A DNA stretch of 17,646 nucleotides from a bacterium (GTDB taxonomy: Bacteria > BMS3Abin14). The DNA is taken from positions 550,223-567,868 of the forward strand of contig CP070719.1 in assembly GCA_020350725.1 (NCBI GenBank), read 5' to 3'. Positions 1,264 to 10,289 of the stretch are shown in pieces. Within the stretch, counting starts at the first letter, position 1. Every line of letters starts with the position of its first letter. Made by a program: the position numbers and the translations under genes. The notes under the pieces were generated by a model that searched no databases, had not been told where the DNA came from, and worked only from the letters and a program-made list of their open reading frames with translations.

Positions 1264-1296
1264 GGCTCCGCCGGCAATTCAAACCCATCGTGAACA

Positions 1297-1345
1297 GGTG
1301 GTGGAGTTCACCGTAATCGCTCCCTGGAGCCAATGACTCCTGTCC
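1297..1345 (+). promoter_or_regulatory. Fluoride riboswitch (crcB motif) in the antiporter leader
   Basis: The sequence fits the known fluoride aptamer. P1 is GGTG (1297-1300) with CACC (1309-1312). P3 is GCTC (1319-1322) with GAGC (1327-1330). The pseudoknot is GGAGT (1303-1307) with ACTCC (1336-1340). The GTTC of P1 and the AATGACTCCTG tail (1332-1342) match the family's conserved segments. A1333 and T1341 correspond to the A40-U48 linchpin pair of the crystallised aptamer, by recalled numbering. The pair A6/U38 of that structure appears here as G1301/C1331, which departs from consensus but changes together. The 3' strand overlaps the terminator arm, so bound fluoride should block termination and turn the gene on. 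Confidence rests on three independent pairings plus context; no covariance search was run. Confidence 0.85.
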
Positions 1346-1367
1346 TTTTCTAGGGCAGGTTTTTTTT
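1339..1367 (+). terminator. Intrinsic terminator: riboswitch expression platform
   Basis: CCTGTCC (1339-1345) pairs with GGGCAGG (1353-1359) around a 7-base loop and is followed by eight T residues (1360-1367). It lies only 17 bases before the antiporter ATG, so it is an attenuator rather than the end of a gene. Its 5' arm shares C1339-C1340 with the aptamer pseudoknot and T1341 with the linchpin position, making the two folds mutually exclusive. Confidence 0.9.
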
Positions 1368-1384: not shown

Positions 1385-2848
1385 ATGGCCGTCAGCCTGG
1401 CTTTCATCATTCTGATCGGGCTTCTCGCCGACGTTCTCTTCCGCAGGATCCGCCTCCCCGGGCTGGTGGGGATGCTCCTGGTGGGCATTCTGGTCGGACC
1501 CTATGTCATGGATATCCTTTCGCCGGACATGATGGCCGTTTCGGGGGATTTCCGGAAGATCGCCCTTATCGTCATTCTGCTCAGGGCAGGCTTTGAATTG
1601 AGGCGCGACACCCTGCACCGGGTGGGACTCTCCGCCATCTCCATGAGCATCATCCCCGCATTGTTCGAGATCGCCGTTGTGACCATCGCGGCCCCTCCCC
1701 TCCTGGGACTGTCCCTGCTCGATGCCGCCATCCTGGGCAGCATCCTGGGGGCCGTATCCCCCGCAGTCGTCGTACCTCTGATGATCGATTTCATGGAACG
1801 GGGCAAAGGTGCCGACAAGGGCATCCCCACCCTCATCCTGGCGGCGTCATCCCTCGACGACGTCTTCGTGATCGTCATCTTCACCGTCCTCCTGGGGATG
1901 TTCGGCGGGGGAACTGTGAACATCCTGTGGCAGGCGGCGACGATTCCCATATCCATCTGTCTCGGCATCCTGGCAGGGCTGATAATCGGCTATGTCCTCT
2001 ATCGGCTGTTCAGCCGATACGATTTCAGACCCCCGAAAAGAACCATCATCGTCATGGGCGCCGCCATTGCCCTGACGTGGATCGAGGACCTGCTCGAGGG
2101 CATCGTTCCCCTGTCGGCCCTGCTGGGGGTTATGGCCATCGGGTTTATCATCCTCGAAAAACAGGAGGCTATCGCCCACATCATCTCGAGCAAGCTCAAG
2201 CGGGTGTGGATCTTCGCCGAGCTGCTCCTGTTCGTCCTCGTCGGCGCCCAGGTGAACATCCACGTCGCCTGGAAGGCCGGGTTGGCCGGCACCGCTGTCA
2301 TTGCCGCCGGTCTGGCCGCGCGGAGCGTCGGAACCTACCTCTCCCTGGCCGGCAGCGGACTGGACCACCGGGAGAAGCTCTTCGCCACCGTCAGCTATAT
2401 CCCCAAGGCAACCGTCCAGGCGGCCATCGGCGCCGTTCCTCTGGCGGCGGGGGTCCCGGGCGGAGAGGTGATCCTCGCCGTGGCCGTCCTGTCCATTCTG
2501 CTGACGGCCCCGGCGGGGGCCATCGGTATCAAGATCATGGGGGAAAGGGTCCTGCGGGAGAGCGATCGGCCCTCCTACAGCTTCAAGGAACTGAGAGCAG
2601 ACCTCTCCCTTCCCCGCACCGGTGAGCGAGTGTTCATGAGGAGCGAGGGAAACACGTGGAAGGTCATCGAGGAAAGGGAAACCTGGCAGGAAGCGCCCGG
2701 GGACGGTTCCAGTCCCGTACCGGCCATCGACCTGAGGTTCTGGAAATACAGCGAGGAACTCGAACCCGGAAAAGGCCAGACAAAAACCCTGCGGTTCACC
2801 CCATCCTCAGCCCCCTTCGACAGGGAATGGGAGATCCTCTACGACTGA
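1385..2848 (+). CDS. CPA-type monovalent cation/proton antiporter under fluoride riboswitch control
   Basis: This 487-residue inner-membrane protein belongs to the sodium/hydrogen exchanger superfamily (PF00999 type). Residues 1-385 contain about a dozen hydrophobic segments. The ion-binding motif is SSLDD, with D158 and D159 in the expected central helix, and YIPKATVQAAIG (338-349) is a typical CPA1 late-helix motif. Exchange of Na+ or K+ for H+ is the family function; the cation here cannot be told. Residues 386-487 form a soluble tail with no domain I recognise. ATG start with GGAGG at 1373-1377, just after the attenuator. The riboswitch implies induction by fluoride. Fluoride riboswitches upstream of Na+/H+ antiporter genes are known alongside crcB and CLC-F. 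Direct fluoride export is not implied; pH or ion homeostasis during HF stress is as likely. Confidence 0.85.
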   Translation: MAVSLAFIILIGLLADVLFRRIRLPGLVGMLLVGILVGPYVMDILSPDMMAVSGDFRKIALIVILLRAGFELRRDTLHRVGLSAISMSIIPALFEIAVVTIAAPPLLGLSLLDAAILGSILGAVSPAVVVPLMIDFMERGKGADKGIPTLILAASSLDDVFVIVIFTVLLGMFGGGTVNILWQAATIPISICLGILAGLIIGYVLYRLFSRYDFRPPKRTIIVMGAAIALTWIEDLLEGIVPLSALLGVMAIGFIILEKQEAIAHIISSKLKRVWIFAELLLFVLVGAQVNIHVAWKAGLAGTAVIAAGLAARSVGTYLSLAGSGLDHREKLFATVSYIPKATVQAAIGAVPLAAGVPGGEVILAVAVLSILLTAPAGAIGIKIMGERVLRESDRPSYSFKELRADLSLPRTGERVFMRSEGNTWKVIEERETWQEAPGDGSSPVPAIDLRFWKYSEELEPGKGQTKTLRFTPSSAPFDREWEILYD

Positions 2849-2881
2849 TCAGGCCTTTTCCTTACTCCAGGGCCTTGATCA
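2846..2881. terminator. Possible bidirectional hairpin between convergent genes
   Basis: TGATCAGGCC (2846-2855) faces GGCCTTGATCA (2871-2881), a near-perfect inverted repeat with one bulged T, spanning the stop codons of the antiporter and the superoxide dismutase gene. The two genes are only 13 bases apart and this is the only stem between them. It lacks a clean T-run on the outer side, so termination is uncertain. Confidence 0.35.
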
Positions 2882-3428
2882 CGCCGCAGGCGAGCCTCTT
2901 CCCGCCCCTACCGGAGGGCTGGGTCATGTGATCGTCAGGTGAGCCGTGGATGACGAGAGCCGTGCCGTCCGGCCTGAAGAGGGAGTTCTCCCCCTGCCTT
3001 AGGGTGACCATCGGGGCGAGGAACACACCCGCACCCTCGCCGTCCGGCCCCACCAGGAGGTTCGGCAGATCACCCGCGTGGGGACCTTTGGGATTTTTCA
3101 GGCCGTGCTCCCGCCCAAAGGGATTGAAGTGCCCCCCGGCCCAATTGAAGTCGGGGGCTACACAAACGCCCTTCTCGTGAATGTGGAGGCCGTGGTATCC
3201 CGGCGGAAGGGATGCGACGTGGACAGAGATCTTGACCCCTTCCGTGCCCTCGGAGAAGGATGCGATCCCCACGGGAACCCCCTCGGAGTTGTTGATCTGG
3301 GCCACAGCCAGCTTTGCCGTGCCATCTCCGTAACAGACAGCGGCAAGAAGCAGAACGACGCAGACGAAAGGTAAAGCGATCCTCACTTTGACACCTCTCT
3401 CTCCCCTGTTGCTGCGCACCCGCATCAC
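2862..3428 (-). CDS. sodC: Secreted Cu/Zn superoxide dismutase
   Basis: It converts superoxide to O2 and H2O2 outside the cytoplasm. Counting 188 residues, all ligands are visible. Copper: H82, H84, H100, H161. Zinc: H100 (bridging), H108, H117, D120. C89 and C181 fit the conserved disulfide, and R178 in KRLACGVI is the active-site arginine. The N-terminus is a signal peptide with a basic start and a VCVVLLLAAV core; C32 follows AAV, a poor lipobox, so a periplasmic rather than lipoprotein form is likelier. The start is ambiguous: ATG at 3428 has a weak GGGGTAGG upstream, while GTG at 3386 (residue 15) has GAGAGG at good spacing and would give a 174-residue precursor. It converges with the antiporter. 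Confidence 0.93.
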   Translation of the reverse strand: MMRVRSNRGERGVKVRIALPFVCVVLLLAAVCYGDGTAKLAVAQINNSEGVPVGIASFSEGTEGVKISVHVASLPPGYHGLHIHEKGVCVAPDFNWAGGHFNPFGREHGLKNPKGPHAGDLPNLLVGPDGEGAGVFLAPMVTLRQGENSLFRPDGTALVIHGSPDDHMTQPSGRGGKRLACGVIKALE

Positions 3429-3620
3429 CTACCCCAGCGCATTACATTCCACTTTATCAGAAAAACCAGCGATTCTCACGGCCTTCGGACCCGGCATACG
3501 GTTCCGGATTCCAAAAAAAACAGTTCACAGTTCACGGTTGGTGAATCAGTGATTCGTGATTTGTGATTAGTGATTCGTAAAAACCAGTTCACAGTTCACA
3601 GTTTACGGTTCACAGTTCGG

Positions 3621-3658
3621 GATTGCTTCACGCGGTTCCCTGTTCGCAATGACAACCG
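3621..3658. repeat. Dispersed hairpin repeat, copy 2
   Basis: It begins GATTGCTTCACGCGG and ends CGCAATGACAACCG, differing from the copy at 287-323 at only a few positions. The terminal ATTGC/GCAAT arms can pair. It is preceded by GTTCACA heptamers and followed by a short T-rich run, as in the other two copies. Confidence 0.7.
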
Positions 3659-3797
3659 CCTTTTTCTCACCATGTATCGGCATTGGATATTCAAGTTCCA
3701 AGTACTGCGTCTCAGGTTTCATGTCTCACAGACCCTTTTGGATTTTGGACTTTGGATTTTGGACTCATTTCCCCCCGTGTCCCCGCGTCCGCTTCTC

Positions 3798-3820
3798 GCC
3801 TGCCCTGAGCCTGTCGAAGG
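3798..3820. repeat. CCTGAGCCTGTCGAAGG repeat, copy 2
   Basis: This 23-base unit is identical to 152-174. Its core CCTGAGCCTGTCGAAGG is a dispersed intergenic word that I recall from many environmental bacterial genomes. Here it sits inside the CCCCGCGTCCGC stretch, while at 152 it lies between heptamer arrays, so its placement is not fixed. Confidence 0.7.
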
Positions 3821-4084
3821 GCCCCCTCGCCCTATCGTCCCTCCGCCCCCTCGCATTTACTGCGGCCCTCTGTGGCGGCGTCTCAAGGGACGCCTCTGTG
3901 TCCTCTGTGTTTAATCCTCTCCTAACTGAGTTCCGGCTCCTGACTCCTGGCTCCTTTTCAAAGGCACGTCCCATGTTCCAGGTACTAACTGTGAACTGTG
4001 AATCGTGAACTGTGAACGAGATTGTCTCTCCCTCTGGACGCTGGCCTCTGGACTCTGGACTCATTTCCCCCCCGCGTCGGGCTG

Positions 4085-4801
4085 TCATCCCTCCTTCCAG
4101 TCCTCGAGAACCGGGCCGGACTTCGCCTCGAGAAGCCCCAATGCGGACAGGAGGATCCGCATCTGAAGGTCCGGCCTGTCCGGGTCCGCAAGAGGACGGC
4201 CCAGCTCGAACGGTACCCAGAGGGCACGGGGAGGCCTGATCCGCTCCGTGTGCTCACGGATCAGGCTGATCTGGGTGGTACTGACGCCTTCACCCTCGAT
4301 GTAATGGGCCAGCCCGCCAACGGCGCGCGTGCAGTTCGGTCAGACGGGGACCAGGAGGGCGGCGGTCACTTCATCCTCTCTCATCATCCTCATCAGCTCT
4401 TCGGTGAAGGATACCATGGCCCGTGGGTCGGTGGCCCCCATGAAAGAGTAGTGGTTACGCGCCACCGATCCGATGACGCCCTCACTTTCCAGCTCTCTCA
4501 GCCTGTCCAGGGGAAAGCAGACGTTCCGGTCGGCCTCGAACCCGGTCCTGTCGTAGTTGGGCGAGACGTGGCTCATAACGAGATCTCCCTTTCCCACATC
4601 GACAGGTATGACCCTGAAATCGGCAGCCCCTGGATGAAAGGGCCTGTCGGATGCCGTGTGGAGGCCGGCGGTGGACACGATGGCGACCCTTGTCCGATCG
4701 AGGGGGGGCGGGATAACCCAGGGAGTGAACCGGAATTCCGGGCACTCCAGTTTTCTCAGATGGGACCGCTTGGGCTCGGGAATGTCGGAGAGGCGGACCA
4801 A
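4085..4801 (-). CDS. PrdB/GrdB-family selenoprotein (TGA-encoded Sec154)
   Basis: Reading through the TGA at 4340-4342 as selenocysteine gives 238 residues ending at TGA 4085-4087. The Sec lies in VPV-U-P-N-C (U154, C157), the redox motif position of the glycine/sarcosine/betaine/D-proline reductase B family; close relatives in my recollection have VPVCPxC there. The 84 codons after the TGA stay open and carry typical family text (VGGLAHYIEGEGV, then IRPPRALWVPFELGRPL), so the TGA is not a gene end. Total length is close to PrdB (about 240) and much shorter than GrdB. H47-like and DRTGFEADRN elements in the first half fit the family. The substrate is unknown: no grd or prd partner lies nearby. 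Start is TTG with GGGAGG seven bases upstream, 24 bases behind the acyltransferase gene. Ordinary annotation would stop at residue 153. Confidence 0.83.
4312..4342 (-). promoter_or_regulatory. UGA selenocysteine codon with candidate bacterial SECIS hairpin
   Basis: On the mRNA strand, CGCC and GGCG form a stem around a GUU loop that begins 19 bases after the UGA. The stem extends past one G-G mismatch to two more pairs. A guanine leads the apical loop, as in known bacterial SECIS elements, and the distance falls in the usual range. The stem is short and the region GC-rich, so the fold alone is weak evidence; the protein alignment is the main argument. Confidence 0.35.
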
Positions 4802-4808
4802 AGTGTTA

Positions 4809-4814
4809 CCTCCC
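4809..4814 (-). promoter_or_regulatory. Ribosome binding site selecting the TTG start at 4801
   Basis: The minus strand reads GGGAGG, then seven bases, then TTG at 4801-4799. No ATG or GTG start in this frame has comparable support, so the rare start codon is accepted. Confidence 0.6.
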
Positions 4815-4825
4815 TGGAGAGTCGC

Positions 4826-5605
4826 TCAGGCAATGGCAGGTTGCCTGAGCTTCTGCTGGATGAAACCGATCACCTCATCGTGCTCTTCACGGCCTCCACC
4901 CGTCACCGCTATGGGCGGCCCGAAGCTGAAGTGGGCGGTCCTTGACGGTTCGATCCTGCCGAAATCCTTGAGGAGCCTGCCCTTTCCCCAGGTATCGGTC
5001 TTCACGGCTATCGGGATGACGGGAACACCGGCGCGTCGGGCCAGCTTGACGCCGATGGTGTTGAACTGTGCCGGGTCGAAGATCTCTTTCCTGGTCGTCT
5101 GGGGGAACACGATCACGGAGATCCCCCGCTCCAGTCTGTCCTGGCCCCCTTCGAGGACGGCCCGGAGGTCCTGTCTCGGGTCCTTTCGGCCGACGACGAT
5201 GGGGTCACGGCTCCGCATGACATGCCTGAAGACCGGATAGCGGATGAGGCTTTCCTTTACCACGAAGGTCACCCTCATGACGGGCTGAATAAGACAGGGG
5301 AGGACAAATGTCTCCAGATTGCTCATGTGGTTTCCTATGAACACACAGGGTTCCTTGAGGTGGCGGTAGGAGTCCATGTGCTCGATGTCAAAATGGCCGC
5401 CCACTTCCTCCAGGGCCTGCAGAACCTCCAGGCTGCTCATGCCCCACTCCTCGTCTCCGTACCTGCCCGCTTTGGCCGCCCGCGAGGACCTCAGGTAGAT
5501 GCCCATCATCCTCCAGTAGAAGAACAGGCTTGGAAAGGCGCGGCGAAGGGGGGAAATCTCTCTTCCCTCCGTTCTGTAATTGTCGTGTTGAGGTATCCGG
5601 ATCAT
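4826..5605 (-). CDS. PlsC-like lysophospholipid acyltransferase with variant motifs
   Basis: This 259-residue membrane-associated protein is likely to transfer an acyl chain to a lysophospholipid or related acceptor. The catalytic His block is G-N-H93-M-S-N-L-E98, an H-x4-E variant of the H-x4-D motif. The glycerophosphate-binding block reads FPQTTR (167-172) instead of FPEGTR. A third block, RAGVPVIPIAVKTD, fits the PlsC motif IV region. The changes are conservative and the fold is intact, so it is probably active on a non-standard substrate. It starts at ATG 5605 without a strong ribosome site. It is first in a two-gene operon with the selenoprotein, 24 bases downstream. Confidence 0.8.
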   Translation of the reverse strand: MIRIPQHDNYRTEGREISPLRRAFPSLFFYWRMMGIYLRSSRAAKAGRYGDEEWGMSSLEVLQALEEVGGHFDIEHMDSYRHLKEPCVFIGNHMSNLETFVLPCLIQPVMRVTFVVKESLIRYPVFRHVMRSRDPIVVGRKDPRQDLRAVLEGGQDRLERGISVIVFPQTTRKEIFDPAQFNTIGVKLARRAGVPVIPIAVKTDTWGKGRLLKDFGRIEPSRTAHFSFGPPIAVTGGGREEHDEVIGFIQQKLRQPAIA

Positions 5606-8654: not shown

Positions 8655-10229
8655 TCATGTGAAGAAGAGGTTCTCCAGGAAGCTTTCCTCGAAACCAGGG
8701 TCTCCGGAGATGGCCACGTGGTCTATCTGACGGGCCAAACGGGCCGATTCCGCCTGAGCTTTTTCCGACAGTAGAACCGTGGATGCCCCCACCAGGGCGG
8801 TATTGCCCGCCGGTACACATCGATCCTTCGATATCGGGGGGAGAAGCCCTATGGCGATGGCGGAAAGGGCATCCAGGCGGCTTCCGAAAGCTCCGGCCAG
8901 GTAGATCCGCTCGAGGTCTGCCTCCACCAGGCCGACCCTGGCTGCGAGGAGATCGAGAGCAGCTCTGACGGCGGCCTTGGCTTTCTGAACCGTCTCCACG
9001 TCCCCGGGCTCAAAGAGCACGCCGGCCTTTCCGTCGATACGCAAGCCGGTCTCATCGAGACAGGGGTGGGTACCCGGTCTCATCAGGCCGGTGGCGTCGA
9101 TAAGGCCCTCCCTCAGCATCCCCGCCAGCAGGTCCACGATGCCGGTCCCGCAGATACCCCTAGGAGACGCGTCGCCGATGGTCTCGTACCTGACGCCGTC
9201 ACGGGAGATACTGACCCTGTATATGGCCCCCTCCTCGGCCCTCATCCCGGACCGGATGTGTCCTCCCTCGAAGGCCGGTCCGGCCGGTGCGGAGGCGGCG
9301 GCGATTCTGTCCCCCTTCCAGACCACGACCTCGGTGTTGGTCCCCACGTCGATCAGGCATCCCTGTGCTCCTCCCTTTTCCAGGGCGCACCGGACCGCCG
9401 TGAGGACGTCGGATCCGACAAAACCTCCCACCAGGGGAGGAAAAACGACCTGCGCCGAGCCCTCCGGTCCGTCGAGATCCTCGAGGTCAACGGCGGACAG
9501 GACCCTTTCGTCCAGCGTGACGGGCTCAAAGGGCGGAGTCAGGAGACTCTCCGTCGGCAGTCCCAAGGCGAGGTGATGCATGGCGGGGTTCCCGACAACC
9601 ACCATCCTCCGCAGCCGTCCCCGGCCGACCCCGTTCCTCATGCAGAGGGATCGTATCTGGTCGGACACGGCCCTCCAGACGGCCGCCCGCATTTTCCCGG
9701 CCACCTCGGGATCCCGGGCGGCAGCCATCCGGGAGAGGATCTCTTCGCCCCAGGGTGTCTGAGGGTTCAGGCCGGCCACGACGTCCAGCGGCCTTGCCAT
9801 GGCCATGTCGTACAGCGCCTCTGCAACGGACGTCGTCCCCAGATCGACGGCCACCCCATATCCTTCAAAAGTGGGCTCCACCGACTCCGGACGCCACAGC
9901 GGGCTCTGCCAGGTCTCCTTCCATCTGCCGGACCTGTCCACCTCGAGGATCCGTTCGGCATCGATCCGTATCCGCAGGTCGGAGGCTGGATTGACCCTGC
10001 AGGCGAGCCGTTCCCCCCGCCGGACCGAATCCGGCCCCAGGAGGCCCCTCTCGGAGGGTGTCGCTTCACCATGATCCCCCTCCAGAACGCGCACGATGCA
10101 CCTGCCGCACCGACCCTCGTCGGCGCAGGTCCCGTCCAGGAAGACACCCTCGGCCCTGAGAGCGGCCCTGAGGTTGACGCCTGTCTGGACGGAGAAGACA
10201 CCTATGTTCTCTACTGTGATCCTTGGCAA
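8655..10229 (-). CDS. RACo-like ASKHA and ferredoxin protein (corrinoid activation)
   Basis: The protein has 524 residues. An N-terminal 2Fe-2S ferredoxin domain has C35-x5-C41-x2-C44 and C77 (GTCADEGRCGRC, then ERLACRV). A linker is followed by a large ASKHA-type ATPase domain, starting GYGVAVDLGTTSVAEAL and including GCLIDVGTNTEVVVW and YLAGAFGSRLD. Family members (DUF4445, RACo) reductively reactivate the cobalt of corrinoid proteins in an ATP-dependent way. No corrinoid protein or methyltransferase partner of that pathway is adjacent. TTG at 10229 is chosen because GGGAG sits nine bases upstream and the ferredoxin strand begins directly; the frame opens at another TTG (10271) without a ribosome site, which would give 538 residues. 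Confidence 0.88.
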   Translation of the reverse strand: MPRITVENIGVFSVQTGVNLRAALRAEGVFLDGTCADEGRCGRCIVRVLEGDHGEATPSERGLLGPDSVRRGERLACRVNPASDLRIRIDAERILEVDRSGRWKETWQSPLWRPESVEPTFEGYGVAVDLGTTSVAEALYDMAMARPLDVVAGLNPQTPWGEEILSRMAAARDPEVAGKMRAAVWRAVSDQIRSLCMRNGVGRGRLRRMVVVGNPAMHHLALGLPTESLLTPPFEPVTLDERVLSAVDLEDLDGPEGSAQVVFPPLVGGFVGSDVLTAVRCALEKGGAQGCLIDVGTNTEVVVWKGDRIAAASAPAGPAFEGGHIRSGMRAEEGAIYRVSISRDGVRYETIGDASPRGICGTGIVDLLAGMLREGLIDATGLMRPGTHPCLDETGLRIDGKAGVLFEPGDVETVQKAKAAVRAALDLLAARVGLVEADLERIYLAGAFGSRLDALSAIAIGLLPPISKDRCVPAGNTALVGASTVLLSEKAQAESARLARQIDHVAISGDPGFEESFLENLFFT

Positions 10230-10238
10230 GGTATTCGG

Positions 10239-10243
10239 CTCCC
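10239..10243 (-). promoter_or_regulatory. Ribosome binding site deciding the RACo start
   Basis: The minus strand GGGAG lies nine bases before TTG 10229-10227. The upstream TTG at 10271 is preceded by no purine-rich site. Confidence 0.4.
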
Positions 10244-10289
10244 ATTCTCCGGCGCACCGGACAGGTGCCAATGTAAACGATTAGATCGT

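Follow-up and report, generated by a model that had tools for sequence, protein, structure and literature searches.

What does the TGA codon in the middle of the gene at positions 4085-4801 (minus strand) encode, and what kind of protein results? The window, a stretch of 17,646 nucleotides, is part of a complete 2.78-Mb chromosome. At this locus it holds a frame of 238 codons whose single in-frame TGA is codon 154 (4342-4340, minus strand). Under the standard code the list of open reading frames gives the first 153 residues only, whereas translation with TGA as selenocysteine yields a full-length coding sequence (4085-4801, minus strand) of 238 amino acids with Sec154 in the context ALLVPV-U-PNCTRAVGG. 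Both ends of this product match those of relatives. The TTG start codon (4801-4799) aligns with their initiator Met and the frame closes at a terminal TGA (4087-4085). Direct reading of the sequence also located a Shine-Dalgarno-like AGGGAGGT (4808-4815, minus strand) 6 nt 5' of the TTG. A preliminary description of this DNA, which left the strand unstated, had proposed a hidden selenoprotein with Sec154 in a UPNC motif, on the ground that the frame stays open for 84 codons past the TGA. The 84 sense codons are indeed there, on the minus strand from 4801 to 4085; because an open extension of this length has a chance of ~7% at this base composition, the extension alone is weak evidence.

The comparison with PrdB/GrdB-family proteins, as the preliminary description had suggested, brought together 66 homologues. 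The column of Sec154 (4340-4342, minus strand, in VPV-U-P-N-C) is TGA in 60 of them, and the remaining six read TGT, TGC, GGC, GGA, TCG and TCA. The in-frame UGA is thus conserved against Sec or Cys, two of the six being Cys codons, and it falls at the very site where relatives had been said to carry one or the other. Three other genomes of the same small phylum (12 sampled), all separate assemblies, have the gene too, with identities of 62-65%. In every one of them there is exactly one TGA, at the same site, with no frameshift there, and the downstream sequence is intact, one contig ending shortly after. Comparing codons 3' of the TGA between the window gene and these relatives, we obtained pN values of 0.11-0.20 and pS values of 0.52-0.77 (0.139 and 0.767 against L060), and pN past the TGA was equal to or below pN before it. 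These rates indicate that the codons downstream of the TGA are under purifying selection, in agreement with the earlier remark that they read as family-like sequence. With the TGA column conserved and pN past it low, the codon is for practical purposes neither a plain stop nor an assembly error, and the gene no pseudogene.

A candidate bSECIS hairpin lies at 4308-4332 (minus strand), covering positions 11-35 when the U of UGA is counted as 1, with an apical GUU at 4321-4319. In the published bSECIS model the loop starts with G followed by G or U, mostly with a flanking pair, at 16-37 nt from the UGA and with a folding energy of at most -7.5 kcal/mol (PMC13188914). The window hairpin fits this model, with its GUU loop, a distance of 18 nt and a predicted -11.8 kcal/mol, and its stem has a mismatch, a G-G at 17-29 that is also present in three near relatives. 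Its 21-24 combination is C-U. Single-sequence folding detected no excess stability of the hairpin region over shuffles (z 0.5), hence we do not rely on thermodynamics alone; given this result and the mismatch, support for the SECIS is comparative.

For this comparison, the 48 nt from the UGA of 46 distinct short-family sequences were aligned without gaps. An unbiased scan of all position pairs for excess Watson-Crick pairing ranked 19-27, 21-24, 15-31 and 18-28 highest, and these four pairs nest around positions 22-23, which read GU in 43 of the 46 sequences. Pair 19-27 is seen as T-A, A-T and G-C, that is, with compensatory changes. A first test on eight stem pairs counted 305 paired cells out of 368, as against 251±6 with the arms shuffled among sequences and 222±7 with synonymous codons drawn according to each gene's own usage. 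With seven pairs, pairing amounts to 86% in register and does not exceed 53% after one arm is shifted by 1-6.

The search for selenocysteine genes that the preliminary description had called for found selA, selB, selC and selD, all in the same complete genome. The selB gene (367 bits) adjoins selA (515 bits), the tRNA-Sec has the anticodon TCA (UCA), and selD (244 bits), whose sequence is partly masked in the record, itself contains an in-frame TGA in VQAAGUAAK. A TusA/DsrE-type (YedF-like) gene, of a type associated with selenium metabolism, is located upstream of this Sec-containing selD (L080:3788-4366, plus strand). With this machinery and this hairpin at hand, UGA154 would be read as selenocysteine because the short hairpin, starting a few nucleotides past the codon, would recruit SelB, which together with Sec-tRNA(Sec) would decode it.

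Two other readings of the codon were weighed. If the TGA were a real stop, followed by a decaying frame or a chance extension, the locus would encode a truncated protein or be a pseudogene, and an open extension of 84 codons does arise by chance at the ~7% rate given above. The sharing of the TGA by 60 of 66 homologues, the low pN behind it, the covariation of the SECIS and the full set of sel genes all speak against this, and the comparative data have refuted it already, leaving it scarcely any probability. The preliminary description had held that missing selB or selC, or a differing stop codon or frameshift in close relatives, would count against its proposal; selB and tRNA-Sec are present, and the relatives keep the TGA in frame. 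Even less probable, to the point of being negligible, is a genome-wide reassignment of UGA to Trp or another residue, which would account for an in-frame TGA within a conserved gene. The selenoprotein gene and its upstream neighbour both terminate in TGA, and the ending of the latter makes TGA a normal stop in this genome, which in addition has SelB and a tRNA-Sec with a UCA anticodon; the reassignment is refuted by these TGA-terminated conserved genes. On the sequence evidence, the "stop" codon inside the gene is almost certainly one for selenocysteine, and the proposal of Sec154 in UPNC is borne out by the TGA column, the low pN, the bSECIS and the sel genes together.

As for the family of the protein, it matches Pfam GRDB (PF07355) at 38.7 bits (9.7e-10; gathering cut-off 22). 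Among NCBIfam models the PrdB equivalog TIGR04483 matches best, at 90.9 bits (8.2e-26, residues 30-225); the equivalog cut-off is 300 bits, which places the protein outside that family, and ten relatives score 92-203 bits to the same model. No match was obtained in PHROGs. A profile search of 386 genomes detected the superfamily in 46, a few of which have just the long GrdB; an earlier scan from a four-sequence alignment, in which one of two patterns had Cys at the Sec site, had returned five loci only. A tree of 66 proteins separates a branch of 12 long GrdBs (support 100) from 54 short proteins, and among the latter the window protein clusters with L059-L065. The only conserved Cys/Sec pair is UxxC, which in the window is the putative U-P-N-C redox motif of Sec154 and Cys157 (4331-4342, minus strand). 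All but one of the 48 short Sec members retain the Cys at +3, and the third Cys of the GrdB motif UxxCxxC is missing from short members. Neither Sec nor Cys occupies the site in 4 of the 54 short proteins, which means that a chalcogen at this place is dispensable in some relatives. Among short-family loci, Sec is replaced by Gly or Ser in L096, L098, L103 and L108 and by a Cys without its partner Cys in L102, hence the fold exists also without the redox pair. The nearest relatives outside the phylum (L062-L065) have an extra C-terminal domain of ~150 amino acids with the motif WFWGQT/WFFKET, which has no significant Pfam match and was seen only in these four genes among the compared loci; it may hint at function.

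The surroundings of the gene were also inspected. A phospholipid acyltransferase-like gene with a PlsC domain (4826-5605, minus strand; Pfam Acyltransferase, 8.1e-16) ends 24 nt upstream of the selenoprotein start, and the two genes are probably co-transcribed. Of the four loci from the phylum, the window, L060 and L061 have an acyltransferase gene just upstream and L059 does not; apart from this no conserved gene neighbour or operon partner was found across 21 loci. Because its neighbours are not conserved across these loci, the selenoprotein gene is a loner whose pathway cannot be read from context. Elsewhere in the window are a fluoride riboswitch (1288-1349, plus strand; RF01734, 42.3 bits) with a multi-pass transporter-like ORF of 487 amino acids directly 3' of it (1385-2848, plus strand), a Cu/Zn superoxide dismutase gene (2862-3428, minus strand; 1.5e-39), here in a selenoprotein-using bacterium, and a gene for a RACo-type corrinoid reductive activator (8655-10271, minus strand; Raco_middle, RACo_C_ter and Fer2). 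The regions 88-470 and 3450-4080 are gene-poor and built from degenerate repeats of short phrases (GTTCACAGTTCAC, GGATTTTGGACTTTGGA, CCCCGCGTCCGC). Within this genome the same phrases recur at L082 and in the vicinity of selD (L080); the compared loci of other genomes do not have them.

Glycine and proline reductases act with partner subunits, and these were sought in the complete genome. It contains no other GRDB protein and no full-length GrdB, no match to PF09338 (the GrdE/PrdA pyruvoyl family), and no GrdA (PF04723), a model that does match in four grd genomes tested. Nor is there a match to TIGR04480 (PrdA), which reached its cut-off in no other genome either; the compared genomes were searched for a true PrdB with PrdA to serve as positive control, without success. 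Across the 46 superfamily genomes, PF09338 is found in seven, those with a long GrdB of ~440 amino acids, and is missing from the other 39. The statement that the gene is not in a grd or prd cluster can therefore be extended to the whole genome, and since any partner is lacking, the window protein is not a subunit of proline, glycine, sarcosine or betaine reductase.

The likeness to known systems is nevertheless clear. PrdB, the 26-kDa selenoprotein subunit of D-proline reductase (TIGR04483), is likewise ~240 amino acids long with Sec in a UxxC motif and aligns over residues 30-225, but the window protein is far below the equivalog cut-off and its genome lacks PrdA. GrdB, GrdF and GrdH, the selenoprotein B of glycine, sarcosine and betaine reductase (PF07355), are homologous in their C-terminal half, where Sec occupies the aligned position; however, GrdB has about 430-440 amino acids, usually UxxCxxC, and lies beside GrdE and GrdA, whereas the window protein has 238 amino acids and UxxC only and is partnerless. 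Short UxxC 'PrdB' selenoproteins have been reported to rank with the commonest ones both in the Sargasso Sea, with 42 genes (PMC1088965), and in GOS data, with 235 (PMC2398784), and 'proline reductase' selenoproteins were reported in Anaeromyxobacter and Geobacter uraniireducens (PMC1794560); reviews place PrdB under TIGR04483 with UxxC. These marine, Anaeromyxobacter and Geobacter uraniireducens proteins share UxxC and pfam07355 and are abundant Sec forms, and, likened by description rather than by sequence, they probably belong to the same short family. The surveys assign them proline reductase function; the absence of partners argues against that function for the members examined here. The earlier proposal of a stand-alone PrdB-like selenoprotein of unknown substrate therefore holds in its main point and is to be amended in two respects: the protein lies outside the PrdB equivalog family (90.9 bits against 300), and short 'PrdB' selenoproteins are not a new kind, having been catalogued since 2005. 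An incomplete literature collection yielded nothing on PrdB-like proteins without PrdA; the partner-absence evidence and the SECIS covariation are what is added here.

A thiol/selenol redox site usually has its reactive residue at the start of a helix and a Cys three residues further on. An AlphaFold2 model, computed with Cys in place of Sec (pLDDT 88.4, pTM 0.89), predicts a strand at 147-151 and a helix at 155-170, with residue 154 between them, so that Sec154 and Cys157 are placed at the N-terminus of the helix. A sequence search of the PDB retrieved no relative and Foldseek no match under E 0.001. Further structural comparison pointed to LacI-type domains at a Z of about 8, which is within the background range, and for this reason no fold is claimed. 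In the mechanism we favor, Sec154, paired with Cys157 in U-P-N-C, would act as the nucleophile on an oxidised or electrophilic substrate, Cys157 would resolve the selenenyl intermediate as a Se-S bond, and the thioredoxin system or a thioredoxin-type donor would re-reduce that bond, the protein working as a self-contained reductase with no need for a pyruvoyl cofactor. We infer both the reductase activity and the thioredoxin coupling from the motif and the superfamily only.

The main rival to a reductase is cleavage of a carbon-heteroatom bond (C-N, C-halogen or similar) by a stand-alone selenol enzyme using GrdB/PrdB chemistry without the pyruvoyl Schiff base. Attack of Sec on a substrate carbon is the chemistry of the superfamily, and a GrdB-like selenoprotein has been proposed for C-F cleavage of monofluoroacetate, where a Schiff base is impossible (PMC10838667). 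However, that system comes with an operon and retains a homologue of GrdE, neither of which was found for the window gene, and the short members do not have the third Cys of the GrdB motif; we regard such cleavage as possible and rather unlikely. Far more doubtful is that the protein is a true PrdB working with a PrdA-type pyruvoyl subunit. TIGR04483 is its best NCBIfam match and proteins of this sort go by the names PrdB or proline reductase in the literature (PMC1088965, PMC2398784, PMC1794560), but the score of 90.9 bits against 300, the complete genome without PF09338 or PrdA matches, and the restriction of PF09338 to the seven superfamily genomes with long GrdB leave this option very improbable. 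Most likely the protein is a UxxC selenol reductase in its own right and no subunit of a proline reductase. Overall, we consider it highly probable that the gene encodes a stand-alone, short PrdB/GrdB-like selenoprotein that is decoded by SelB and acts as a self-contained UxxC reductase without a pyruvoyl cofactor.

Automatic annotation ends the gene product at residue 153, and the name it gives, if any, points to a proline or glycine reductase; because the superfamily occurs mostly without partner subunits, the reductase name should not carry over. The conserved SECIS, with 46 aligned sequences and compensatory changes inside codons, offers a well-aligned case for studying the bacterial recoding signal. 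The superfamily is common and nearly always carries Sec, and so represents a widespread selenoenzyme. We think it likely that the single-gene selenoproteins to which annotation gives the name PrdB or GrdB, a large clade that spans phyla, form a selenoenzyme class of their own, one that would act on an undiscovered substrate, with no pyruvoyl partner, in non-Stickland bacteria.
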